This document shows positions 53,160 through 64,000 of a stretch of 64,000 nt of DNA, piece after piece. The notes beneath the pieces were generated by a model, which was not told the DNA's origin, did no database searches, and saw nothing but the letters and a program-made list of their open reading frames with translations. This DNA comes from a bacterium. GTDB taxonomy: Bacteria; Bdellovibrionota; Bdellovibrionia; Bdellovibrionales; Bdellovibrionaceae. The DNA is taken from assembly GCA_019752925.1 (NCBI GenBank), contig JAIELP010000004.1, positions 392,258-456,257 of the forward strand, in the 5' to 3' direction. Numbering within the stretch: the first letter of the stretch is position 1; each line of letters begins with the position of its first letter. A program made the position numbers and the translations under genes.

Positions 53160-54704
53160 ATGAAACTAAGAAATCTTGGTTTATTTTTAGCTCTGGCATT
53201 AGCAGCTCAAGTATCTTCAGCTGGCGAATACTTAGTTAAATACAAAAACACCAACGCACTTAACAAAATCGCAGCAATGCAAACTGAGGCTTTCGGTCTT
53301 GAGATGAAGGGTATTCATCGTCCAGGTCAATTAGCTACAGTTAATATCGCTAAGAAAAACGAAGCTAGAACTTTAGCAGCTTTATTTGCTGATAAAAACG
53401 TTGAGTACGTTGTTCCTAACTTCACTATCAGAGCTTTTACTACTCCGGTAAATACTGAAGCTTTAAAAGAGCAATATGCATTAGCGAAAGTAAATGCTGA
53501 AGCGGCTTGGAAGCGCGCAGGTAACAAAGGTAGCAAAAATGTATTATTAGCTGTTATCGACACTGGTGTAGACTACAGACACAAAAATTTAGCTCCAAAT
53601 ACAGTTCCAGGTTATGACTTCCGCGATAACGATGCAGATCCAATGGATCAAACTTCTGCACAAAATCCAGGTCACGGTACTCACTGTGCTGGTATTGTTG
53701 GTGCAACTGGTTTAATCGATGGCGGTATCTCAGGTTTATCTCCTGAAGTTTCTATCATGCCTTTACGTTTCTTAGGTGCTGATGGTTCTGGTTCTTTAGA
53801 AGGTGGTATCAAAGCTATCGACTACGCAATCGAGAAAAAAGTACAAGTTATCTCGGCTAGTTGGGGCGCATCTGTTCCTCCTGCAACGGCTCAACCATTA
53901 GTTGAAGCTATTGCTAGAGCTGAAGCTGCGGGAATCATCTTCGTAACTGCGGCTGCAAATGACGGTAAAAACAATGATAAAACTGACGTTTACCCTGCAA
54001 ATGCTGGTTTACCAAACATGATCACTGTTGCGGCTTCTGGCGCAACTGATGCAAAACCATCTTGGTCAAACTATGGTAAAGCTAAAGTATCTTTAGCTGC
54101 TCCAGGTGAAAACATCATGTCAACTGTACCATCTGACAAATACTCAAATATGTCTGGTACTTCAATGGCAACTCCACTTGTTGCAGGTTTAGTAGCTTTC
54201 TTAAAAGCTCAAGATGCAACTCTTACTGGTGCAGAGATCAAAGCTTTATTACAAACAACTGGTTCAAAAGTACAAATCGAAACAGCATGTAACTGCCGTA
54301 TCGATGCTTTCGCGTCAGTAGATACTTTGTTATCTAAAAAAGCTTGGTTAGTTCCTGCTGCAGCAACTATCGGCGAAAAAGCAACTTTACAATTCACTCT
54401 TAAAAATGCTTCTGGCGCGGTTAAATTTGAATCTTCTAACCCTGCAATCTTAGCTGTTGATGCTAACGGTTTAGCTTCTGCAGTAGCAAAAGGTACAGCT
54501 TCTATTAAAGCAACTGATGCTAACGGAACTGTTCAATCATTAGATATCAATGTTGGAGCAGTTACTTCAAAACCACCAACTGATCCAGGTCAGCCACCTA
54601 CAGATCCAGGCCAACCTGGTGATGGTGAATGCCCACTCGGTGACGCGGCTATGTGCCAAATCCTTTGCCAAATCATGCCGACAGCTCCTTGGTGTTCGAA
54701 ATAG
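53160..54704 (+). CDS. secreted S8 family peptidase with Pro-rich linker and Cys-rich C-terminus
   Basis: VIDTGVDYRH, GHGTHCAGIVGA, MSGTSMATPLVAG; Big2-like domain; PPTDPGQPPTDPGQ linker. Confidence 0.93.
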   Translation: MKLRNLGLFLALALAAQVSSAGEYLVKYKNTNALNKIAAMQTEAFGLEMKGIHRPGQLATVNIAKKNEARTLAALFADKNVEYVVPNFTIRAFTTPVNTEALKEQYALAKVNAEAAWKRAGNKGSKNVLLAVIDTGVDYRHKNLAPNTVPGYDFRDNDADPMDQTSAQNPGHGTHCAGIVGATGLIDGGISGLSPEVSIMPLRFLGADGSGSLEGGIKAIDYAIEKKVQVISASWGASVPPATAQPLVEAIARAEAAGIIFVTAAANDGKNNDKTDVYPANAGLPNMITVAASGATDAKPSWSNYGKAKVSLAAPGENIMSTVPSDKYSNMSGTSMATPLVAGLVAFLKAQDATLTGAEIKALLQTTGSKVQIETACNCRIDAFASVDTLLSKKAWLVPAAATIGEKATLQFTLKNASGAVKFESSNPAILAVDANGLASAVAKGTASIKATDANGTVQSLDINVGAVTSKPPTDPGQPPTDPGQPGDGECPLGDAAMCQILCQIMPTAPWCSK

Positions 54705-54740
54705 TAGAACTATAGTCGAGTAAATTGATTTTTAACTCAA

Positions 54741-54775
54741 AAAAAAGGCCCTTCTAAGGGCCTTTTTTTATAGAT
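54741..54775 (+). terminator. intrinsic terminator
   Basis: AAAAAAAGGCCCTTCTAAGGGCCTTTTTTT. Confidence 0.85.
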
Positions 54776-54838
54776 TTTTAACAACTTTGATATGCATTTA
54801 ATCCCTCAACTCTCTCATTAAAGTGCCGATAAGAGTAC

Positions 54839-55957
54839 GTGGAAAATAATCAAAATAGTTCAGACTCATTTGGCTCATTTTTAGACTTTTATGAAACGTC
54901 GGCAATTTTGATCGATAGCCAAGATTCTATCATTCGTTGTAATCAAAAGCTCAAATCCGAAAATGGTATATTTCATTTTTTTGATTTTAACGAGAATGAA
55001 AAAAATTATTCATTGAATCAGATTGATAAAGAAGATTGGTATAAGTACTTAAGCATCTGTTTTTCTACTGGTGGAGCAAAGTTTATTTTACGTTCCTGTT
55101 TTTATGAATGTGTAATGACCCGTCTTGAAAAGGGTGATGAAAAGTATGTGTTGGTTAATTTCTTTGAAAATAAGTCTTTAAAAGAAGATGTGGCGGATTT
55201 CTTTTTGAATGATTTCCGTTTGTCTCAGCTTAAAGAATTAAGCGAAATGGCAGCCAGCATCGCTCATGAAATTAACAACCCATTAACGGTTATTTCTGCG
55301 CGCACGCAATTATTGAAGCAATCAATTAAAGATAATAAGCAGATTTCAAACGATATTCTGGCTCAGAATCTTGAAAAGATTTATCAGCAATCCGACAGGA
55401 TCAAAAAAATTGTAGATGGTATGCGTGTTTATTCTAGAAATTCTAATCAGGACAACCGTACGGTTTATAACATTAAGTCGATAGTTGAAGAGGCTCACTC
55501 GTTAGTGGCGGGTGGTATGCGAGATATGGGAATTGAGTTCAGCTTTAATCTTTCTCAAAATGAAAAATACATTAACTGTAAGCCGAATGAGCTCATTCAG
55601 GTTTTCGTTAATTTGTTTAACAACTCAATCTATGCATTATCGAAAACAAATTTTCCTAAAATTGAAATTCAATTCGTTGAAGATGAAAATGATTTCCATC
55701 TTTATTTTTCAGATAATGGACCAGGTGTACCTGTGGATTATGATACCAAGATATTTGCACCATTTTTTACCACGAAGCTGGTTGGTGCAGGAACGGGGCT
55801 GGGACTTAGCATTTCCAATAAAATTATTCAGTCATACGGTGGGTCTCTTACTTTAGACCGTAGCCGTGGAAATAGCTGTTTTCATGTTAAGTTGTCCAAA
55901 AAGAATGAGCACAAGCAGACTGGCTCCGATGCCGAAATTTATAAGTTCAGTTCGTAA
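54839..55957 (+). CDS. sensor histidine kinase
   Basis: GTG start; SIAHEINNPLTVISARTQLL H-box, NLFNNSIYAL N-box, FSDNGPGVP, GTGLGLSISNKII. Confidence 0.9.
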   Translation: MENNQNSSDSFGSFLDFYETSAILIDSQDSIIRCNQKLKSENGIFHFFDFNENEKNYSLNQIDKEDWYKYLSICFSTGGAKFILRSCFYECVMTRLEKGDEKYVLVNFFENKSLKEDVADFFLNDFRLSQLKELSEMAASIAHEINNPLTVISARTQLLKQSIKDNKQISNDILAQNLEKIYQQSDRIKKIVDGMRVYSRNSNQDNRTVYNIKSIVEEAHSLVAGGMRDMGIEFSFNLSQNEKYINCKPNELIQVFVNLFNNSIYALSKTNFPKIEIQFVEDENDFHLYFSDNGPGVPVDYDTKIFAPFFTTKLVGAGTGLGLSISNKIIQSYGGSLTLDRSRGNSCFHVKLSKKNEHKQTGSDAEIYKFSS

Positions 55958-55997
55958 TTAACAGGTTTAAGCATATATTGCGAAAGAGGCACCAAAG

Positions 55998-56501
55998 ATG
56001 AGTCAACAAATAAAAAAGCATAAGCCGGATTACAGTGAATATAGTATTGAAGAAGAACGCTCAAATCTAAGAAAATTCTTAAATGACAATAATCTTTGGA
56101 TACCGGAAAATTTTTATGAGCATATCCGATCGGGTGATGTTATAGACATTTATGAATTACCACCTAATCGCTCTCAGCTATATGGAAATCCGCAGTTTAA
56201 AAAGCTTTGTTCTTATACAGATGAGATGATGAAATCGATTCCTTTTCCTAAGTTATTCTGGAGATCTGACGAAATTCAACTGCAACTTATGAAAAAAATG
56301 TCCCATGTTGCAATCACAATGGACCAAGCTGTGCCGTGGGATATTGAAAGACACGAATTGATTGAAAGTATGCATCCAAACAAGCGTACTTTCGAAATTG
56401 ACCTGGGCTGGGTTGGTCCATGCTTTAAAAAAGACACAAACGAAAGAGTTGGGTTTGTGTCTTCTTTGAATGTTGCTTTAATATTTGAATGGGCTAATTA
56501 A
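55998..56501 (+). CDS. hypothetical protein
   Basis: ORF with RBS downstream of histidine kinase. Confidence 0.6.
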   Translation: MSQQIKKHKPDYSEYSIEEERSNLRKFLNDNNLWIPENFYEHIRSGDVIDIYELPPNRSQLYGNPQFKKLCSYTDEMMKSIPFPKLFWRSDEIQLQLMKKMSHVAITMDQAVPWDIERHELIESMHPNKRTFEIDLGWVGPCFKKDTNERVGFVSSLNVALIFEWAN

Positions 56502-57144
56502 CAAACATTTCTGCTGAGCTGTTTGCATTAGCTGAGCTATTTTTATGTATAGCTAAGCATTCCTGTAAAAACATACTGTAATTACGCGATGATTGAATCA
56601 GGTTTTCAAGAATTATTTCTTGCTGATCAGCAGGAAGTTGAGCAATCACGTCCAGAGCTTTTTCTACGTGCCCGGGATCTTCTTCAACATGAAGTTTTAA
56701 GAATAATGAGTTTTCCACTCCATGTGCTGAGTAAATTCGTTGAATGAAATTAGGTATGATCAGGCTAGCTACGCCCTCTAAAGACAGGATGTAACCAAAA
56801 AGACTGGCTGGATGTATGCGCTCAATTTTATAATATTGAGTTTCATACAAATTTCTTGTTACGCCAGATTCTGGTTGTAAATTGGTAATGCCCATTTTTT
56901 TTAAATCGTTAAGTGCTATTTTCTCATGTCCTTTTTCTTCAGCAATATGATCAGAGAAGCGTCTGTGTAATGCATTTTCGGTTAGTTTTGTATTGCCGCT
57001 AGCTAAAGCCAGCAATCTTGTTGAGTGACAAACAAAGTAATATGTTTGTGTTAAGTAGGTTGCATAGAAGTTTTTGTCTTCCCATGGCAAACCGGTCATT
57101 AAAGTCGAAATTTTCTTAATTTCAGATTCGAATACTTGTTTCAT
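56494..57144 (-). CDS. heme-oxygenase-like (TenA/iron-containing redox enzyme) family protein
   Basis: helical fold with HIAEEKGHEKIALNDLKKMG and LHVEEDPGHVEKALDVI metal-ligand-like motifs. Confidence 0.65.
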   Translation of the reverse strand: MKQVFESEIKKISTLMTGLPWEDKNFYATYLTQTYYFVCHSTRLLALASGNTKLTENALHRRFSDHIAEEKGHEKIALNDLKKMGITNLQPESGVTRNLYETQYYKIERIHPASLFGYILSLEGVASLIIPNFIQRIYSAHGVENSLFLKLHVEEDPGHVEKALDVIAQLPADQQEIILENLIQSSRNYSMFLQECLAIHKNSSANANSSAEMFVN

Positions 57145-57808
57145 AAGCTTCCTTTTTGTTCGTGTAGTCTTTTCTTTTTTTCCATAGCAGCGAGGCTTCG
57201 CTGCTAAATTTTACTTTTTTTATTTCTTCTATAAAAAAACAAACTAAATCAACTAAAACACCATGGTAGGTTATGTCTTTAAAAACGGCAACCGCTCCGG
57301 CATTTTCTAAAAGTTTGTCAACGGATCTGTCTTTTCTTGGTGAGCTGAACGTTACATCCACATTCTCATGAATAGTAACAAGACTCATGATTTCTGAAAG
57401 AATTTGTGCAAGATTAAGTTCAGTTTTTCCTTTAGATCTTCGATAGTCTTGATGAATAGTAAACCAACTGGGAACAATAGCTGAGTCAACATCCTGTGCG
57501 AGTTGGAATAAAAAATCTTTTGGCCAAGGATTGAACCAAGAATCCTCAATAGTGGCATAGACTTTTAAGTCAACTTTGCGGAAACAGCAAAGGCCAATTG
57601 CTTCTTTTTTATATGAGATAACCACAAAAAAATCATGGCGTGTGAAGTCTTCGCTATAAAGATTTTCGATATTGTCGAGTTTTTTAAGAGTATTAAGCCA
57701 ATTGGTTTTCCATAAATTATAAGACGAATTGTAGAGTTCAATATTTTGCTGCTGGTATGTAGACGATTTTAAAACACTTAATGTTAGGTCCTGAATTTCA
57801 ATTTTCAT
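57122..57808 (-). CDS. acyltransferase-like (GNAT-fold-like) hypothetical protein
   Basis: FFVVISYKKEAIGLCCFRKVD ... WFTIHQDYRRSKGKTELNLAQILSEIM; position between SDR and HDO-like genes. Confidence 0.5.
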   Translation of the reverse strand: MKIEIQDLTLSVLKSSTYQQQNIELYNSSYNLWKTNWLNTLKKLDNIENLYSEDFTRHDFFVVISYKKEAIGLCCFRKVDLKVYATIEDSWFNPWPKDFLFQLAQDVDSAIVPSWFTIHQDYRRSKGKTELNLAQILSEIMSLVTIHENVDVTFSSPRKDRSVDKLLENAGAVAVFKDITYHGVLVDLVCFFIEEIKKVKFSSEASLLWKKRKDYTNKKEAYETSIRI

Positions 57809-58539
57809 TAATAAAGCCCCCCATTTAATCTAATACTTTGGCCCGTAACATATGAGGAGTTATCATTTAAAAGATATTCTACGAGGCTTCCGATGTCTTC
57901 TTTGTTGCCGAAACGTTTAGCTGGTATTTTCTGCTTTATTTCGTTCTGAAATTTTTCTGGAACTTCATTTATTAGACCGTATTCAAAGTAACCGAGCGCA
58001 ATAGAGTTGACGGTAATATTTTTATTAGCAAGCTCAAGAGATAAAGATTTGGTTAATCCATTTATTCCGGCCTTGGCCGCGGAGTAATGGCTCGCGCCAA
58101 CAACACCCATATCGGCAACAACACTGGAAAAATTGATAATTCTACCGCAATTTTCGTGTCGCATTTGCGGTATAAATTCTTTTGAGCATAGAAACGTAAT
58201 AAGTAAATTATTATTAATGACAGAGCTGAATTCATCTTGCGATATATTCCACGACATGCTGTTTTTTGACATTCCAGCAACGTTCACTAATGCGTATATT
58301 TTGCCGATATTATTTTCGATTTTTTCGCGTAACTCTCTTACTTCATTTTCATTAGTTAGCTCAGCTTTGTATAAATGTTTTTCCGGATTAAGGTCGTAAG
58401 CAGTTAAAAGTTTTGATATTAAAGAATTTTCAGATCTATACTGGCAAGCTAAATTTCTATAACCTTTTTCCAGAAGATAATTAGTTATTGCAAGACCAAT
58501 TCCACCATTTGATCCTGTAATGAGTATATTTTTAGACAT
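57808..58539 (-). CDS. SDR family oxidoreductase (FabG-like)
   Basis: ITGSNGGIGLAITNYL, LVNVAGMSKNS, SAAKAGINGLTKSLSLELA, YVTGQSIRLNGGLY. Confidence 0.92.
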   Translation of the reverse strand: MSKNILITGSNGGIGLAITNYLLEKGYRNLACQYRSENSLISKLLTAYDLNPEKHLYKAELTNENEVRELREKIENNIGKIYALVNVAGMSKNSMSWNISQDEFSSVINNNLLITFLCSKEFIPQMRHENCGRIINFSSVVADMGVVGASHYSAAKAGINGLTKSLSLELANKNITVNSIALGYFEYGLINEVPEKFQNEIKQKIPAKRFGNKEDIGSLVEYLLNDNSSYVTGQSIRLNGGLY

Positions 58540-58678
58540 AATTCTCCTTACAAATTGATTGATGAGTAATTTGCTTGAGTATTGAATAGTTAAAATTTTT
58601 TTTTATAGGCTGAAGTACTGACGGCAGAATGCATGATATAGCATGGCTAGTTTTTGAAGCATTTTGAGCTTTTTTCAT
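58532..58678 (-). CDS. unlisted 48-codon ORF translationally coupled to SDR gene
   Basis: ATG at 58678 with GGAG upstream; MKKAQNASKTSHAISCILPSVLQPIKKNFNYSILKQITHQSICKENYV; stop overlaps SDR start by 8 nt (ATGTCTAA). Confidence 0.5.
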   Translation of the reverse strand: MKKAQNASKTSHAISCILPSVLQPIKKNFNYSILKQITHQSICKENYV

Positions 58679-58751
58679 GGTTTCTCCGTGTATTTTTCGG
58701 ACGCAATGAAGATACTTTTAAATAATACAGACTGCTTCTGTATACAAATTA

Positions 58752-58791
58752 AGTTTCTGTTAAATATAATTTGTAGAAAATAACAGAAACT
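58752..58791. promoter_or_regulatory. perfect 11-bp inverted repeat, candidate operator
   Basis: AGTTTCTGTTA (58752-58762) / TAACAGAAACT (58781-58791), 18-nt spacer. Confidence 0.5.
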
Positions 58792-58916
58792 AAAATAAGT
58801 ATTCGGTGAATTTTAACAGTAAATTAATTTTGTAAAGAAATTGTTAAATTTAAGTTTTAAATCTTATCAGTTTAACTTCATTTTAAAAAAAATAAACAAC
58901 TTATTAATTAAATCAA

Positions 58917-60293
58917 TCAAACCAATCTAGATGTTTCGTCCGGTAGAAGTAAGGCTTCAATGGATTTTGGAGGAGCTAGATTGAATATTATGTACAGAGA
59001 CTTAAGCACTTGTTCGCTAATCGATTTACCTAATACGGTATACATATGATCTAAAATTAGTTTAATGTCGGACTTATGTTCGTTTTCATATACAGTTTCT
59101 ATAAATTCTCCAACAGTGTGTATTATTTTAGAATATGAATGAACTTTGGATCTAGGCAGCTTTTGAGGAAACCCAAAGCCTGCAGAGTCTTCGTGATGCT
59201 GAAGGGCTACGTGTAGTATTTCATCTGGGATGCCTTCTATTTGTCTGAGTATCTCGAAGCTTCTCACTGGATGTTGCTCATAAGCCTTTCTTTCATCCGG
59301 GCTGTATTCAAATTTTGTTTTATTTAAGAGCTCTTTGTGGTCTTTTAAGCCGATATCAGCAAGTAGTGCAGACAAAATCACGCGGCTTTGTGCTTTTGGA
59401 GAGCGCCATTTCCAAAGCGTGATAATTGAGTGGGAAATAATGGCTTTGAGTGCTGATTTGTCAGCTAAGCTTGGATTATCGTTTTGAATGTATTCAATAA
59501 TACTATTTATCTGGCTGTGTTTTAAGGAAACACTTGTATAGCATTCAAATGCAACTAACGAGTTGTTTAAAAATTTTTTATCTATTTCTTTAGCTACTGA
59601 GTTCTGGCTAATTGCAGACATTAATTGATTCATAATGCGAATTTTTTTTACTTCTTCGATAGGGCGCTTGATAACAGTTTTAGAGATGGCAAAATGCAAG
59701 TCTGTATACTTAGCGAAATCTTCTGAATTTAAATAGACGTGCGTAGCACCTTTTTTTGCGAAATTGCTTAACCTTTCCGAAGTGAAGTCCTGCCCGCTCT
59801 TAGTAACGCGTATGAAGTTTTGGTCTACTTTAAGAAATATATTGTAGTCGCTGGTTTTTGAAAGCATAAACTCTTCTATAGGTACTGAAAAAAAATCTTC
59901 ATTAGGATTTGCTTTTGAGCTGTCCTTTTCGAGTAAGTAATTAACCACTAGAGCTACGGCTTCTAAGTCATAAGGTTTTGCGATAAGTTCGTCGACACCT
60001 ATTTTGAATGCGTTCTGTACTGTTATAATATCCGCAAAGCCTGTTACGAGAATAAAAGGTGTAAGATTGTCTGTATCAATTTCTTTTTTAAATATTTCAT
60101 AAAGTTCTAATCCGCTTTTTTGCGGCATTTTTATATCGGATATAATTAAATCTACCTTGTTAGAGCTTAAATATGTAATTGCATCTTCGGCTGTGTGGCA
60201 GAGTTTTATTTTGAAACCGTTTAAATTTTCTAAATATTCTTTTAAAGCTTCTGCAATTTCAACATCATCTTCGACTACAAGTATTTGATTCAT
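58917..60293 (-). CDS. response regulator with HD-GYP/HDOD-like output domain
   Basis: receiver ILVVEDDVEIAEALKEYL...DLIISDIKMPQKSGLELYE; YEQHPVRSFEILRQIEGIPDEILHVALQHHEDSAGFGFPQ. Confidence 0.88.
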   Translation of the reverse strand: MNQILVVEDDVEIAEALKEYLENLNGFKIKLCHTAEDAITYLSSNKVDLIISDIKMPQKSGLELYEIFKKEIDTDNLTPFILVTGFADIITVQNAFKIGVDELIAKPYDLEAVALVVNYLLEKDSSKANPNEDFFSVPIEEFMLSKTSDYNIFLKVDQNFIRVTKSGQDFTSERLSNFAKKGATHVYLNSEDFAKYTDLHFAISKTVIKRPIEEVKKIRIMNQLMSAISQNSVAKEIDKKFLNNSLVAFECYTSVSLKHSQINSIIEYIQNDNPSLADKSALKAIISHSIITLWKWRSPKAQSRVILSALLADIGLKDHKELLNKTKFEYSPDERKAYEQHPVRSFEILRQIEGIPDEILHVALQHHEDSAGFGFPQKLPRSKVHSYSKIIHTVGEFIETVYENEHKSDIKLILDHMYTVLGKSISEQVLKSLYIIFNLAPPKSIEALLLPDETSRLV

Positions 60294-60359: not shown

Positions 60360-60387
60360 TGTTAAAAATAGGTAAATATTTTTAACA
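60360..60387. repeat. AT-rich palindrome
   Basis: TGTTAAAAATA (60360-60370) - GGTAAA - TATTTTTAACA (60377-60387), perfect 11-bp arms. Confidence 0.6.
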
Positions 60388-60515
60388 AAATACTATCACG
60401 TTGAAGATCTACTATGGGGTTAAAGTAAAAACAGGACTTTTGTATTGAAATAGAAAAAGTTCTCATTATGGGACGCTTCTGTTAAGGAATTGTTAAATTT
60501 GTGATAGTATTTTGT
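60385..60515. repeat. perfect 15-bp inverted repeat flanking 101 bp
   Basis: ACAAAATACTATCAC (60385-60399) and GTGATAGTATTTTGT (60501-60515). Confidence 0.85.
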
Positions 60516-60568
60516 AAAATTCATATATAATAAAGACGATATCAATATTGTACGTATATGGAGTTAAA

Positions 60569-60826
60569 TTGCTGTTAAGAATACTTTTAGGTTTAATATT
60601 AAGTATATTGTTATCTGCTTGCGGTGGGCAAAGCGGTGGTTTGGCTCCGTCTAAAGATCAAAATCAACCAACATCACCAATTGCCGATATATCTTATGAA
60701 AGTAATTTTAAATTTGCAGAATCTAAAACCACCGGCAACGGTTGGGAAGTGACATTAGATACAACCGATCCGGTCGAACACGTTGCACTGGGAAATGGCT
60801 GGACAGTAGAGGTCATGCATGAGTAG
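60569..60826 (+). CDS. small putative lipoprotein upstream of fibre gene
   Basis: TTG start with GGAG upstream (ORF track start 60548 is also in frame); MLLRILLGLILSILLSAC lipobox; stop overlaps fibre start. Confidence 0.65.
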   Translation: MLLRILLGLILSILLSACGGQSGGLAPSKDQNQPTSPIADISYESNFKFAESKTTGNGWEVTLDTTDPVEHVALGNGWTVEVMHE

Positions 60827-63800
60827 GTCTTTAATATCATTTTTAATTTTGGTATTCAGCACGGTAACTGCATTTGCAGAAATGGGTGTGCCGATACAGC
60901 TTAAACTTAAATCGCCTTCGGGAACTTATCCGACTGAAGCCGGTCTTTCATTTAAACTTTTAATTTTATCACCGGGTTCAAATTGTATTTTAAGAGAAGA
61001 AAATTTTTCATCTCAGGTTATTAATAACGGCAGCATTTCGCTTGTTTTAGGTAATGGAGCCAGAGGTGTTAATGATCCAGCTTTAAGCCTGAATCAGGTG
61101 TATGACAATTCTAAACCTAAAACAGGTTTGTCGTGTGTAGATGGAAATAATAATATAGTTTCAGTTTCTCAGGTTTATAATCCAGTAGCAGGCGATCAAA
61201 GAACTATACGTGTAACTTCAACCATTTCAGGTGATCCGATTTTAGTTAACTTCACAATGCGTGCTACTCCTTTTGCTATTCAGGCTGAATCCGTTGGCGG
61301 TAAGCCTGCAGCCGATATCATTGTTAACGACGCGGCTTCGCAGATGAACCAAACTAACCTGAATGATCTATTATTGGATGTTGGTCGCTTTAATAATTTA
61401 AGAAATTTAGCGGTGAGTGGTCAGGCTATAACTGCCAACTCAGCAGTGAACTTTACCGGAACTTTAGTTGGCGATGTGAGTGGTACTCAGGGTGCAACTT
61501 CTGTAGATCGCATCAAAGGGGTACCTGTAAGTGCAACGGCACCGTCAAATAATCAGATTTTACAATTTAATGGTGCTCAATATGTTCCTGTAAATTTACC
61601 TCCGGCTCCGGTTACTAGTGTAGCTGGCCGTACTGGTGCAATCGTATTATCCAGTTCAGATATTTCAGGTTTAACATTTGGTACAGCGGCCAACACATTT
61701 GCTCAAGGTAATGACTCCCGCATTACCGGTGCTTTACAAAGTTCATCAGTGTTTTCCGGTGATGTATCCGGAACAGTATCTTCAATTACTGTTAACCGCG
61801 TAGGCGGAAAAACTAGTGCTGAAATTGCTAACTCAGTTAATGATACGCAAGCCGCAACATCGGCCAATACAGTTAGTACAATTGTAAAAAGGGACGGAAG
61901 CGGAAATATTTCGGCTTCTTCAGTTTCAGCCACCAATAATTCAACGCAGAATGTTTATGTGTACGAAGCAACAAATACGAACAGCGTTCGTATTAAAGCT
62001 CCGGGTTCTTTTTCGAATTATACTTTAACATTACCAGTTGATGCTGGGACCAGCGGACAAGTATTACAAACCGATGGTTCTGGAAACTTATCGTGGTTGA
62101 ACCCATCTACCGGGTCAGTAACGGCTGTTTCGGCTTCAGCTCCTTTAGCTTCTTCAGGCGGAACAACTCCTAATATTACAATTGCGCAGGCAAATGCTAC
62201 AGCTTCAGGATATTTGTCATCAGCTGATTGGACTTCTTTCAATAATAAACAAGCTGCTTTAGGATATGTACCCTTAAACGCAGCTAGCAATTTAAGTGAT
62301 GTGGCTTCTGCAGCAACAGCTAGAACTAATCTGGGTTTAGGCGGTGCTGCTGTATTAAATGTTGGAACTTCTGCTGGCACAGTGGCGGCCGGTGATGATG
62401 TACGTATTACCGGTGCATTACAAAGTTCAGCGTTTAATGCTTATGTAGCTTCTGCAAGTTGTACATCAACTCAATCAATGTACTGGAACAGTGTTAGCAG
62501 TCAATTTGAATGTCAGTCTATAAACTTCCCTGCAGATGCAGTTACCAGTGTGGCGGGTCGTACGGGTGCGGTAGTATTATCGAGTTCAGACATTTCTGGT
62601 TTAGGAAATTCGGCTTCGCGTAATGTTGGTACTTCAGCCGGCACAGTTGCTGCTGGTGATGACTCACGTATTACGGGAGCACTACAAAGCTCTTCAATTT
62701 TCTCAGGTGATGTTTCCGGAACAGTTTCTTCTATTAATGTAAACAAAATCCGCGGTGTAACTGTTAGTGCAACAGCACCGACTTTAAATCAAGTACTTCA
62801 ATATAATGGTACTCAGTATGTACCATCAACTTTACCTTCAGCGCCTGTTACAACAGTAGCAGGTCGTACGGGTGCAGTTGTATTATCAAGTTCAGACATT
62901 TCTGGTTTAAGTTTCGGTACAGCAGCTAATACATTTGCTCAAGGTAATGATTCTAGAATTGTAAATGCAGTCCAAACATCAAGTGTTCATTCAGGTGATG
63001 TGTCGGGCACGTTAACTACATTAAGCGTTGATCGTATTAAAGGTGTGGCAGTAAGTGCAACAGCTCCGACATTAAATCAAGTATTACAATACGATGGTTC
63101 GCAATACGTTCCAGTAGCTATTCCATCAGCACCGGTAACTACTGTAGCCGGTCGTACAGGAGCAATAGTATTAACAAGCTCAGATATTTCTGGGTTAGGT
63201 GCCGCAGCAGCTTTAAACCTAGGAACTTCAGCCGGAACAGTAGCAGCTGGTGATGACTCAAGAATCACAGGCGCATTACAAAGCTCTGTATTTAATGGAT
63301 ATGTTGCCTCTGCAAGTTGTACCTCAGGTCAGTCAATGTACTGGAACAGCGTAAGCAGTCAGTTTGATTGTCAGGCTATTAACTTCCCAGCTGATGCAGT
63401 AACCTCTGTTGCTGGACGTACCGGCGCGGTGGTCTTAACAAGCTCGGATATTTCGGGTTTAGGAAACTCTGCTTCGCTTAATGTGGGAACAACTGCAGGC
63501 ACGGTAGCGGCCGGTGACGATTCACGAATTACTGGAGCATTACAAGCTTCGTCAGTATTCTCAGGCGACGTATCAGGAACTTCAACAACAGTTGCAGTTA
63601 ACAGAATACGTGGCATAGCAGTAAGTGCAACGACACCGACATTAAATCAAGTACTTCAATATAATGGTACTCAGTATGTACCAGCTAATTTACCTGCAGA
63701 CGCAGTAACAACAGTAGCAGGTCGTACAGGTGCGGTGGTATTATCGAGTTCAGACATTTCTGGTTTAGGAAACTCAGCTTCGCTTAACGTGGGAACATCA

Positions 63801-64000
63801 GCAGGAACAGTTGCTGCTGGAGATGATTCAAGAATTACAGGCGCCTTGCAGAGTTCATCTATTTTCTCTGGAGATGTATCAGGAACTATTTCTTCTATTA
63901 ATGTAAATAAAATCCGCGGTGTTGCAGTAAGTGCAACGACACCGACATTAAATCAAGTACTTCAATATAATGGTACTCAGTATGTACCAGCTAATTTACC
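60819..64000 (+). CDS. phage tail-fibre-like repetitive secreted fibre/adhesin (partial, runs off window)
   Basis: not in ORF track; read by eye from ATG 60819 with no in-frame stop to 64000; signal peptide MSRSLISFLILVFSTVTAFA; repeated VAGRTGAxVLSSSDISGL, GDVSGT, AAGDDSRITGALQSS. Confidence 0.92.
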   Translation, partial: MSRSLISFLILVFSTVTAFAEMGVPIQLKLKSPSGTYPTEAGLSFKLLILSPGSNCILREENFSSQVINNGSISLVLGNGARGVNDPALSLNQVYDNSKPKTGLSCVDGNNNIVSVSQVYNPVAGDQRTIRVTSTISGDPILVNFTMRATPFAIQAESVGGKPAADIIVNDAASQMNQTNLNDLLLDVGRFNNLRNLAVSGQAITANSAVNFTGTLVGDVSGTQGATSVDRIKGVPVSATAPSNNQILQFNGAQYVPVNLPPAPVTSVAGRTGAIVLSSSDISGLTFGTAANTFAQGNDSRITGALQSSSVFSGDVSGTVSSITVNRVGGKTSAEIANSVNDTQAATSANTVSTIVKRDGSGNISASSVSATNNSTQNVYVYEATNTNSVRIKAPGSFSNYTLTLPVDAGTSGQVLQTDGSGNLSWLNPSTGSVTAVSASAPLASSGGTTPNITIAQANATASGYLSSADWTSFNNKQAALGYVPLNAASNLSDVASAATARTNLGLGGAAVLNVGTSAGTVAAGDDVRITGALQSSAFNAYVASASCTSTQSMYWNSVSSQFECQSINFPADAVTSVAGRTGAVVLSSSDISGLGNSASRNVGTSAGTVAAGDDSRITGALQSSSIFSGDVSGTVSSINVNKIRGVTVSATAPTLNQVLQYNGTQYVPSTLPSAPVTTVAGRTGAVVLSSSDISGLSFGTAANTFAQGNDSRIVNAVQTSSVHSGDVSGTLTTLSVDRIKGVAVSATAPTLNQVLQYDGSQYVPVAIPSAPVTTVAGRTGAIVLTSSDISGLGAAAALNLGTSAGTVAAGDDSRITGALQSSVFNGYVASASCTSGQSMYWNSVSSQFDCQAINFPADAVTSVAGRTGAVVLTSSDISGLGNSASLNVGTTAGTVAAGDDSRITGALQASSVFSGDVSGTSTTVAVNRIRGIAVSATTPTLNQVLQYNGTQYVPANLPADAVTTVAGRTGAVVLSSSDISGLGNSASLNVGTSAGTVAAGDDSRITGALQSSSIFSGDVSGTISSINVNKIRGVAVSATTPTLNQVLQYNGTQYVPANL
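61620..64000 (+). repeat. modular in-frame repeats inside fibre gene
   Basis: VAGRTGA codon starts at 61620, 62550, 62856, 63144, 63408, 63714; exact repeat of at least 77 bp at 63618-63694 and 63924-64000. Confidence 0.9.

Follow-up and report, generated by a model that had tools for sequence, protein, structure and literature searches.

What does a perfect inverted repeat do between a gene for a response regulator and the genes of a large surface fibre in a Pseudobdellovibrio-like predatory member of the Bdellovibrionaceae? A sequence-only reading of this locus had taken its size and placement to fit an invertible, phase-variable promoter switch or, alternatively, one operator duplicated so that each of the two divergent genes has the same box in its own orientation. 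We examined both proposals, together with further explanations, starting from the whole 64,000-nucleotide stretch of DNA that contains the repeat (hereafter the window, to which positions refer), which forms the end of contig 2 in a genome of 2.74 Mb in 14 contigs.

The inverted repeat and its chance expectation

The sequence ACAAAATACTATCAC (60385-60399) is the exact inverted copy of GTGATAGTATTTTGT (60501-60515), with 101 bp between them. On recheck, the 15-bp repeat was found precisely where the sequence-only reading had placed it and proved even longer than described, extending to 60381-60399 and 60501-60519 (19 nt with one mismatch, 95% complementary, 101 nt between). The left arm (60381-60399, minus strand; perfect 15-bp core 60385-60399) reads GTGATAGTATTTTGT toward the response-regulator gene, and the right arm (60501-60519, plus strand; perfect 15-bp core 60501-60515) reads it toward the fibre genes. 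The box thus has the same orientation relative to the genes on either side, and in both arms it is followed by one differing base and then AAA. The arm centres are 116 bp apart, corresponding to 11.05 helical turns at 10.5 bp per turn, and enclose a core (60400-60500) of 31% GC without a good-quality outward promoter.

A genome-wide search for the 15-mer, as the sequence-only reading had proposed, returned only the two arms and no third copy. Fifteen further sites match the box with at most two mismatches, 13 of them inside genes; these scattered, mostly intragenic matches pointed to no other convincing promoter with the box in the genome. The 15-mer was absent from 59 related genomes, all of them from other species, the exact repeat pair was missing from the genome and viral collections searched, and a plasmid search gave no match. 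A separate, shorter perfect inverted repeat, TGTTAAAAATA-N6-TATTTTTAACA (60360-60387), overlaps the left arm by 3 bp and is a possible operator, though inverted repeats with 11-bp arms are common in the window.

When the 275-bp intergenic spacer is modelled as an order-1 Markov chain, a perfect inverted repeat with arms of 15 bp or more, separated by 20 bp or more, arises with P = 0.0013. For a repeat of this length and spacers of 20-400, models of order 1 to 3 predict 0.02-0.03 such pairs by chance across the noncoding DNA in an 856-kb sample of this genome (stretches plus the window), bearing in mind that real DNA is patchier than Markov models allow. Two pairs were observed there: the repeat at 60385-60515 and an extended terminator. 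The latter, following an rpoD-like gene (C1:222765-222880), is an unusually long perfect palindrome with 28-bp outer arms around an inner hairpin, and was rejected as a comparable element on account of its terminator identity. Chance is therefore a poor explanation of the repeat, as the sequence-only reading had judged, and we regard the repeat as real and non-random.

The genes on either side of the repeat

The response regulator (58917-60293, minus strand) comprises a receiver domain and an HD_5 domain; a domain search found no DNA-binding domain in it. On the other side, a small lipoprotein gene (60569-60826, plus strand; 85 aa from a TTG at 60569 behind GGAG, the reading frame being also open from a TTG at 60548) overlaps the large fibre gene (60819-63998, plus strand), which is cut by the contig end, a break probably caused by internal repeats. 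The fibre begins with a signal peptide followed by a conserved N-terminal domain that aligns with relatives, the feature by which membership in the family of mosaic adhesive trimer (MAT) fibres (PMC10769870) was assigned. In the complete genome of one member of a sister genus, presumably Bdellovibrio, a profile of this domain matched 21 genes, and 21 MAT adhesins have been reported for B. bacteriovorus HD100 (PMC10769870). Judged by the aligned domain and the matching gene count, the fibre gene thus very probably encodes a MAT-type prey-recognition adhesin. Its named relatives belong to Pseudobdellovibrio sp. and other Bdellovibrionales assemblies.

Small lipoproteins (~85-168 aa) ending in GNGWTVEV.E or VEGAFYE are encoded immediately ahead of MAT fibre genes, which they overlap, at many loci in two genera (60569-60826 in the window; loci L052-L058, L129, L130, L132-L134 and L137). 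The surface element holding the N-terminal domain of MAT fibres still awaits identification (PMC10769870), and these lipoproteins are natural candidates for the surface anchor.

Orthologs of the response regulator occur in a few genomes of the genus, at 37-43% identity. In two relatives, the regulator gene diverges from an operon of acetyltransferase-like and haem-oxygenase-like genes; in the window, this operon is encoded farther along the strand that carries the regulator. The lipoprotein-fibre unit has relatives in eight further genomes of the genus, where other genes adjoin it. Since both partners have other neighbours in relatives, the comparison indicates that the divergent regulator-fibre pair is particular to this lineage. 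The repeat was likewise not found upstream of the 8 orthologous fibre units or of 29 other MAT loci; a box-like GTGATAGTGTTTT upstream of the ortholog L057, an isolated case at another position relative to the gene, was discounted.

Two further observations concern the surroundings. Genes for a subtilase, the response regulator, the acetyltransferase-like and haem-oxygenase-like pair, and the lipoprotein with its MAT fibre are neighbours in the genus in varying order and orientation (53160-60293 of the window; loci L019, L020, L055 and L057). Upstream of an SDR gene (58752-58791), AGTTTCTGTTA forms a short inverted repeat, and the 13-bp sequence AATTGTTAAATTT is also present in the region upstream of the fibre.

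A candidate attack-phase promoter beside the right arm

Attack-phase promoters of B. bacteriovorus carry the FliA-type signal TTAAG-N16-CCGATA (PMC3627812). Between the right arm and the fibre genes, the window contains a candidate sigma28/FliA-type element, TAAAA-N16-ACGATA (60515-60541, plus strand), that starts at the end of the right arm, which thereby abuts the -35 of the candidate promoter. With 3/5 and 5/6 matches to the two halves of the consensus, the element is weak when taken alone (p = 0.09). Most relatives carry a sigma28-type signal at the matching place upstream of the lipoprotein-fibre unit, several orthologs being clear matches (such as TTAAC-N16-CCGATA in L054 and TTAAT-N16-CCGATA in L055), and the summed score lay above all 400 shuffled sets. 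Its position and the signals in relatives suggest that TAAAA-N16-ACGATA is likely the fibre promoter.

The sequence-only reading had instead pointed to a TATAAT (60526-60531, plus strand) 10 nt past the right arm. This hexamer is indeed present at that position, and it falls inside the spacer of the sigma28-type element; a consensus scan revealed no sigma70 -35 partner for it. On the response-regulator side, the search assigned no promoter, and no terminator was found in the intergenic region. More broadly, MAT fibre genes are widely preceded by FliA-type CCGATA promoters (upstream regions of loci L138-L157 and L052-L061), a pattern that suggests attack-phase control of the MAT adhesin set across the family.

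Readings of the repeat

Our preferred reading, to which we give somewhat less than an even chance, is that the arms represent two copies of one regulator-binding box at a divergent promoter, each facing its own gene. Paired operators are favoured over a flip switch because the likely fibre promoter is not part of the segment that would invert. If transcription starts ~6-8 nt after ACGATA, the midpoint of the fibre-side box would fall at about -40, a position from which an activator would touch polymerase or a repressor would obstruct it. One protein on both boxes could loop out the 101 bp, with which the ~11-turn spacing is compatible, and such looping could link fibre expression in the attack phase with that of the divergently transcribed response regulator.

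The duplicated operator of the sequence-only reading thus gains from the orientation shared by both genes, the abutment to the -35 and the helical phasing, and the locus provides two box copies with a candidate promoter on the fibre side. It loses on conservation, in that related genomes lack both the box and the divergent pair; this weakens the operator reading, conservation being supportive rather than strictly required, and no regulon emerged from the genome either. With the box seen at no further convincing promoter and in none of the relatives, the paired-box arrangement is lineage-specific and unproven. The weak promoter match in the genome itself (p = 0.09) and the lack of an assigned promoter on the regulator side also count against paired operators. 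Were they real, they would add a lineage-specific layer of control to a fibre for prey recognition whose expression is otherwise probably governed by the attack-phase sigma factor, and would illustrate how individual adhesins are rewired in predators.

The main rival is an evolutionary accident, in which the rearrangement that joined the regulator to the fibre left behind a functionless short inverted duplication, or the two arms match by chance. That the divergent pair is new to the lineage (the regulator of relatives sitting beside the acetyltransferase-like/haem-oxygenase-like operon and the fibre beside other genes) and that the repeat occurs in no relative are both in keeping with such an event. 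Against it stand the low local chance (~0.001) and the extent of the repeat itself: a fresh duplication should match past 19 bp, whereas both arms of an old one without function should have degenerated. We consider an accident rather unlikely on balance.

Under the invertible-switch proposal, a site-specific recombinase would act on the arms and flip the 101 bp between them, thereby switching the fibre or the regulator between on and off states. Inverted repeats do flank a segment here, whose size and placement resemble known switches, such as that of C. difficile, which spans 154 bp and has imperfect inverted repeats (PMC7446863); the target gene encodes a surface adhesin, and the genome encodes nine tyrosine and three serine recombinases. 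The anatomy of the locus nevertheless speaks against an invertible promoter. In known cases the promoter lies inside the repeats, and resistance-gene examples sit beside their invertase (PMC8748976), whereas our scan detected no good promoter inside the 101-bp core. With the sigma28-type element located outside the arms, at a position conserved in relatives, inverting the core changes no good core promoter: in-silico inversion of 60400-60500 left this element intact and moved only one weak sigma70-like match, itself using the arm. The C. difficile flagellar switch has no promoter inside and regulates after transcription initiation (PMC7446863), but a promoterless switch requires the segment to be transcribed with its gene, a misfit here if transcription starts downstream of both arms.

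As for recombinases, the sequence-only reading had seen none in the window, which holds for the tyrosine and serine families, the nearest member (C2:306192) lying ~146 kb from the repeat. A search elsewhere in the genome, which it had also suggested, yielded the 12 genes mentioned; the flanking sequence examined showed no matching pair of repeats at any of them, and the arm has no other copy in the genome. With the likely promoter outside the core and no linked or matching recombinase, a switch is therefore improbable. The fuller version, in which an unlinked recombinase flips the segment and varies the MAT fibre, the response regulator or both, would amount to a phase-variable prey adhesin and would explain how varied prey specificity is kept within a clonal predator population; we give it little credence, and our literature search found no report of a phase-variable prey adhesin in a predatory bacterium.

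We attach a similarly low probability to a structured RNA or DNA hairpin, with the arms as the long stem of a leader, a small RNA or a cruciform. The region does fold better than shuffled sequences, both as RNA (60385-60575; z = -2.9) and as DNA (60375-60525; z = -3.3), but much of this stability derives from the arms themselves, and neither an Rfam match nor a terminator was found. Since both arms lie upstream of the predicted fibre start, they would be missing from the fibre transcript. Least probable is an origin as the terminal inverted repeats of a small, MITE-like mobile element, of which the short AT-rich core and its flanking 19-bp arms with a single mismatch are reminiscent: the pair exists in a single copy, which largely refutes this origin, the spacer matches only itself in the genome and short AT-rich stretches elsewhere in the family, plasmids returned nothing, the same pair is absent from the genome and viral collections, and the repeat ends show no clear target duplication.

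For the time being, the repeat offers a genuine, if minor, lead on regulation. The E. coli gal operon provides a precedent for paired operator sites of the divergent-promoter type in helical phase. The arrangement in the window resembles such duplicated operators in having two box copies spaced near whole helical turns; it differs in that the box is non-palindromic by itself and that no regulator or regulon was found. With the invertible promoters of Bacteroidales (PMC8748976) and the C. difficile switch (PMC7446863), the locus shares short inverted repeats that flank 100-200 bp ahead of a gene for a surface structure, while here the likely core promoter lies outside the flanked segment and no invertase is linked. 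The fibre has the same conserved N-terminal domain as the MAT fibres of Bdellovibrio bacteriovorus (PMC10769870), although the contig end cuts it before its tip can be seen. Like the FliA-type attack-phase promoters of Bdellovibrio (PMC3627812), finally, the fibre unit has an element resembling TTAAG-N16-CCGATA at a conserved place upstream; the copy in the window is degenerate (TAAAA-N16-ACGATA) and bears an extra box directly upstream.
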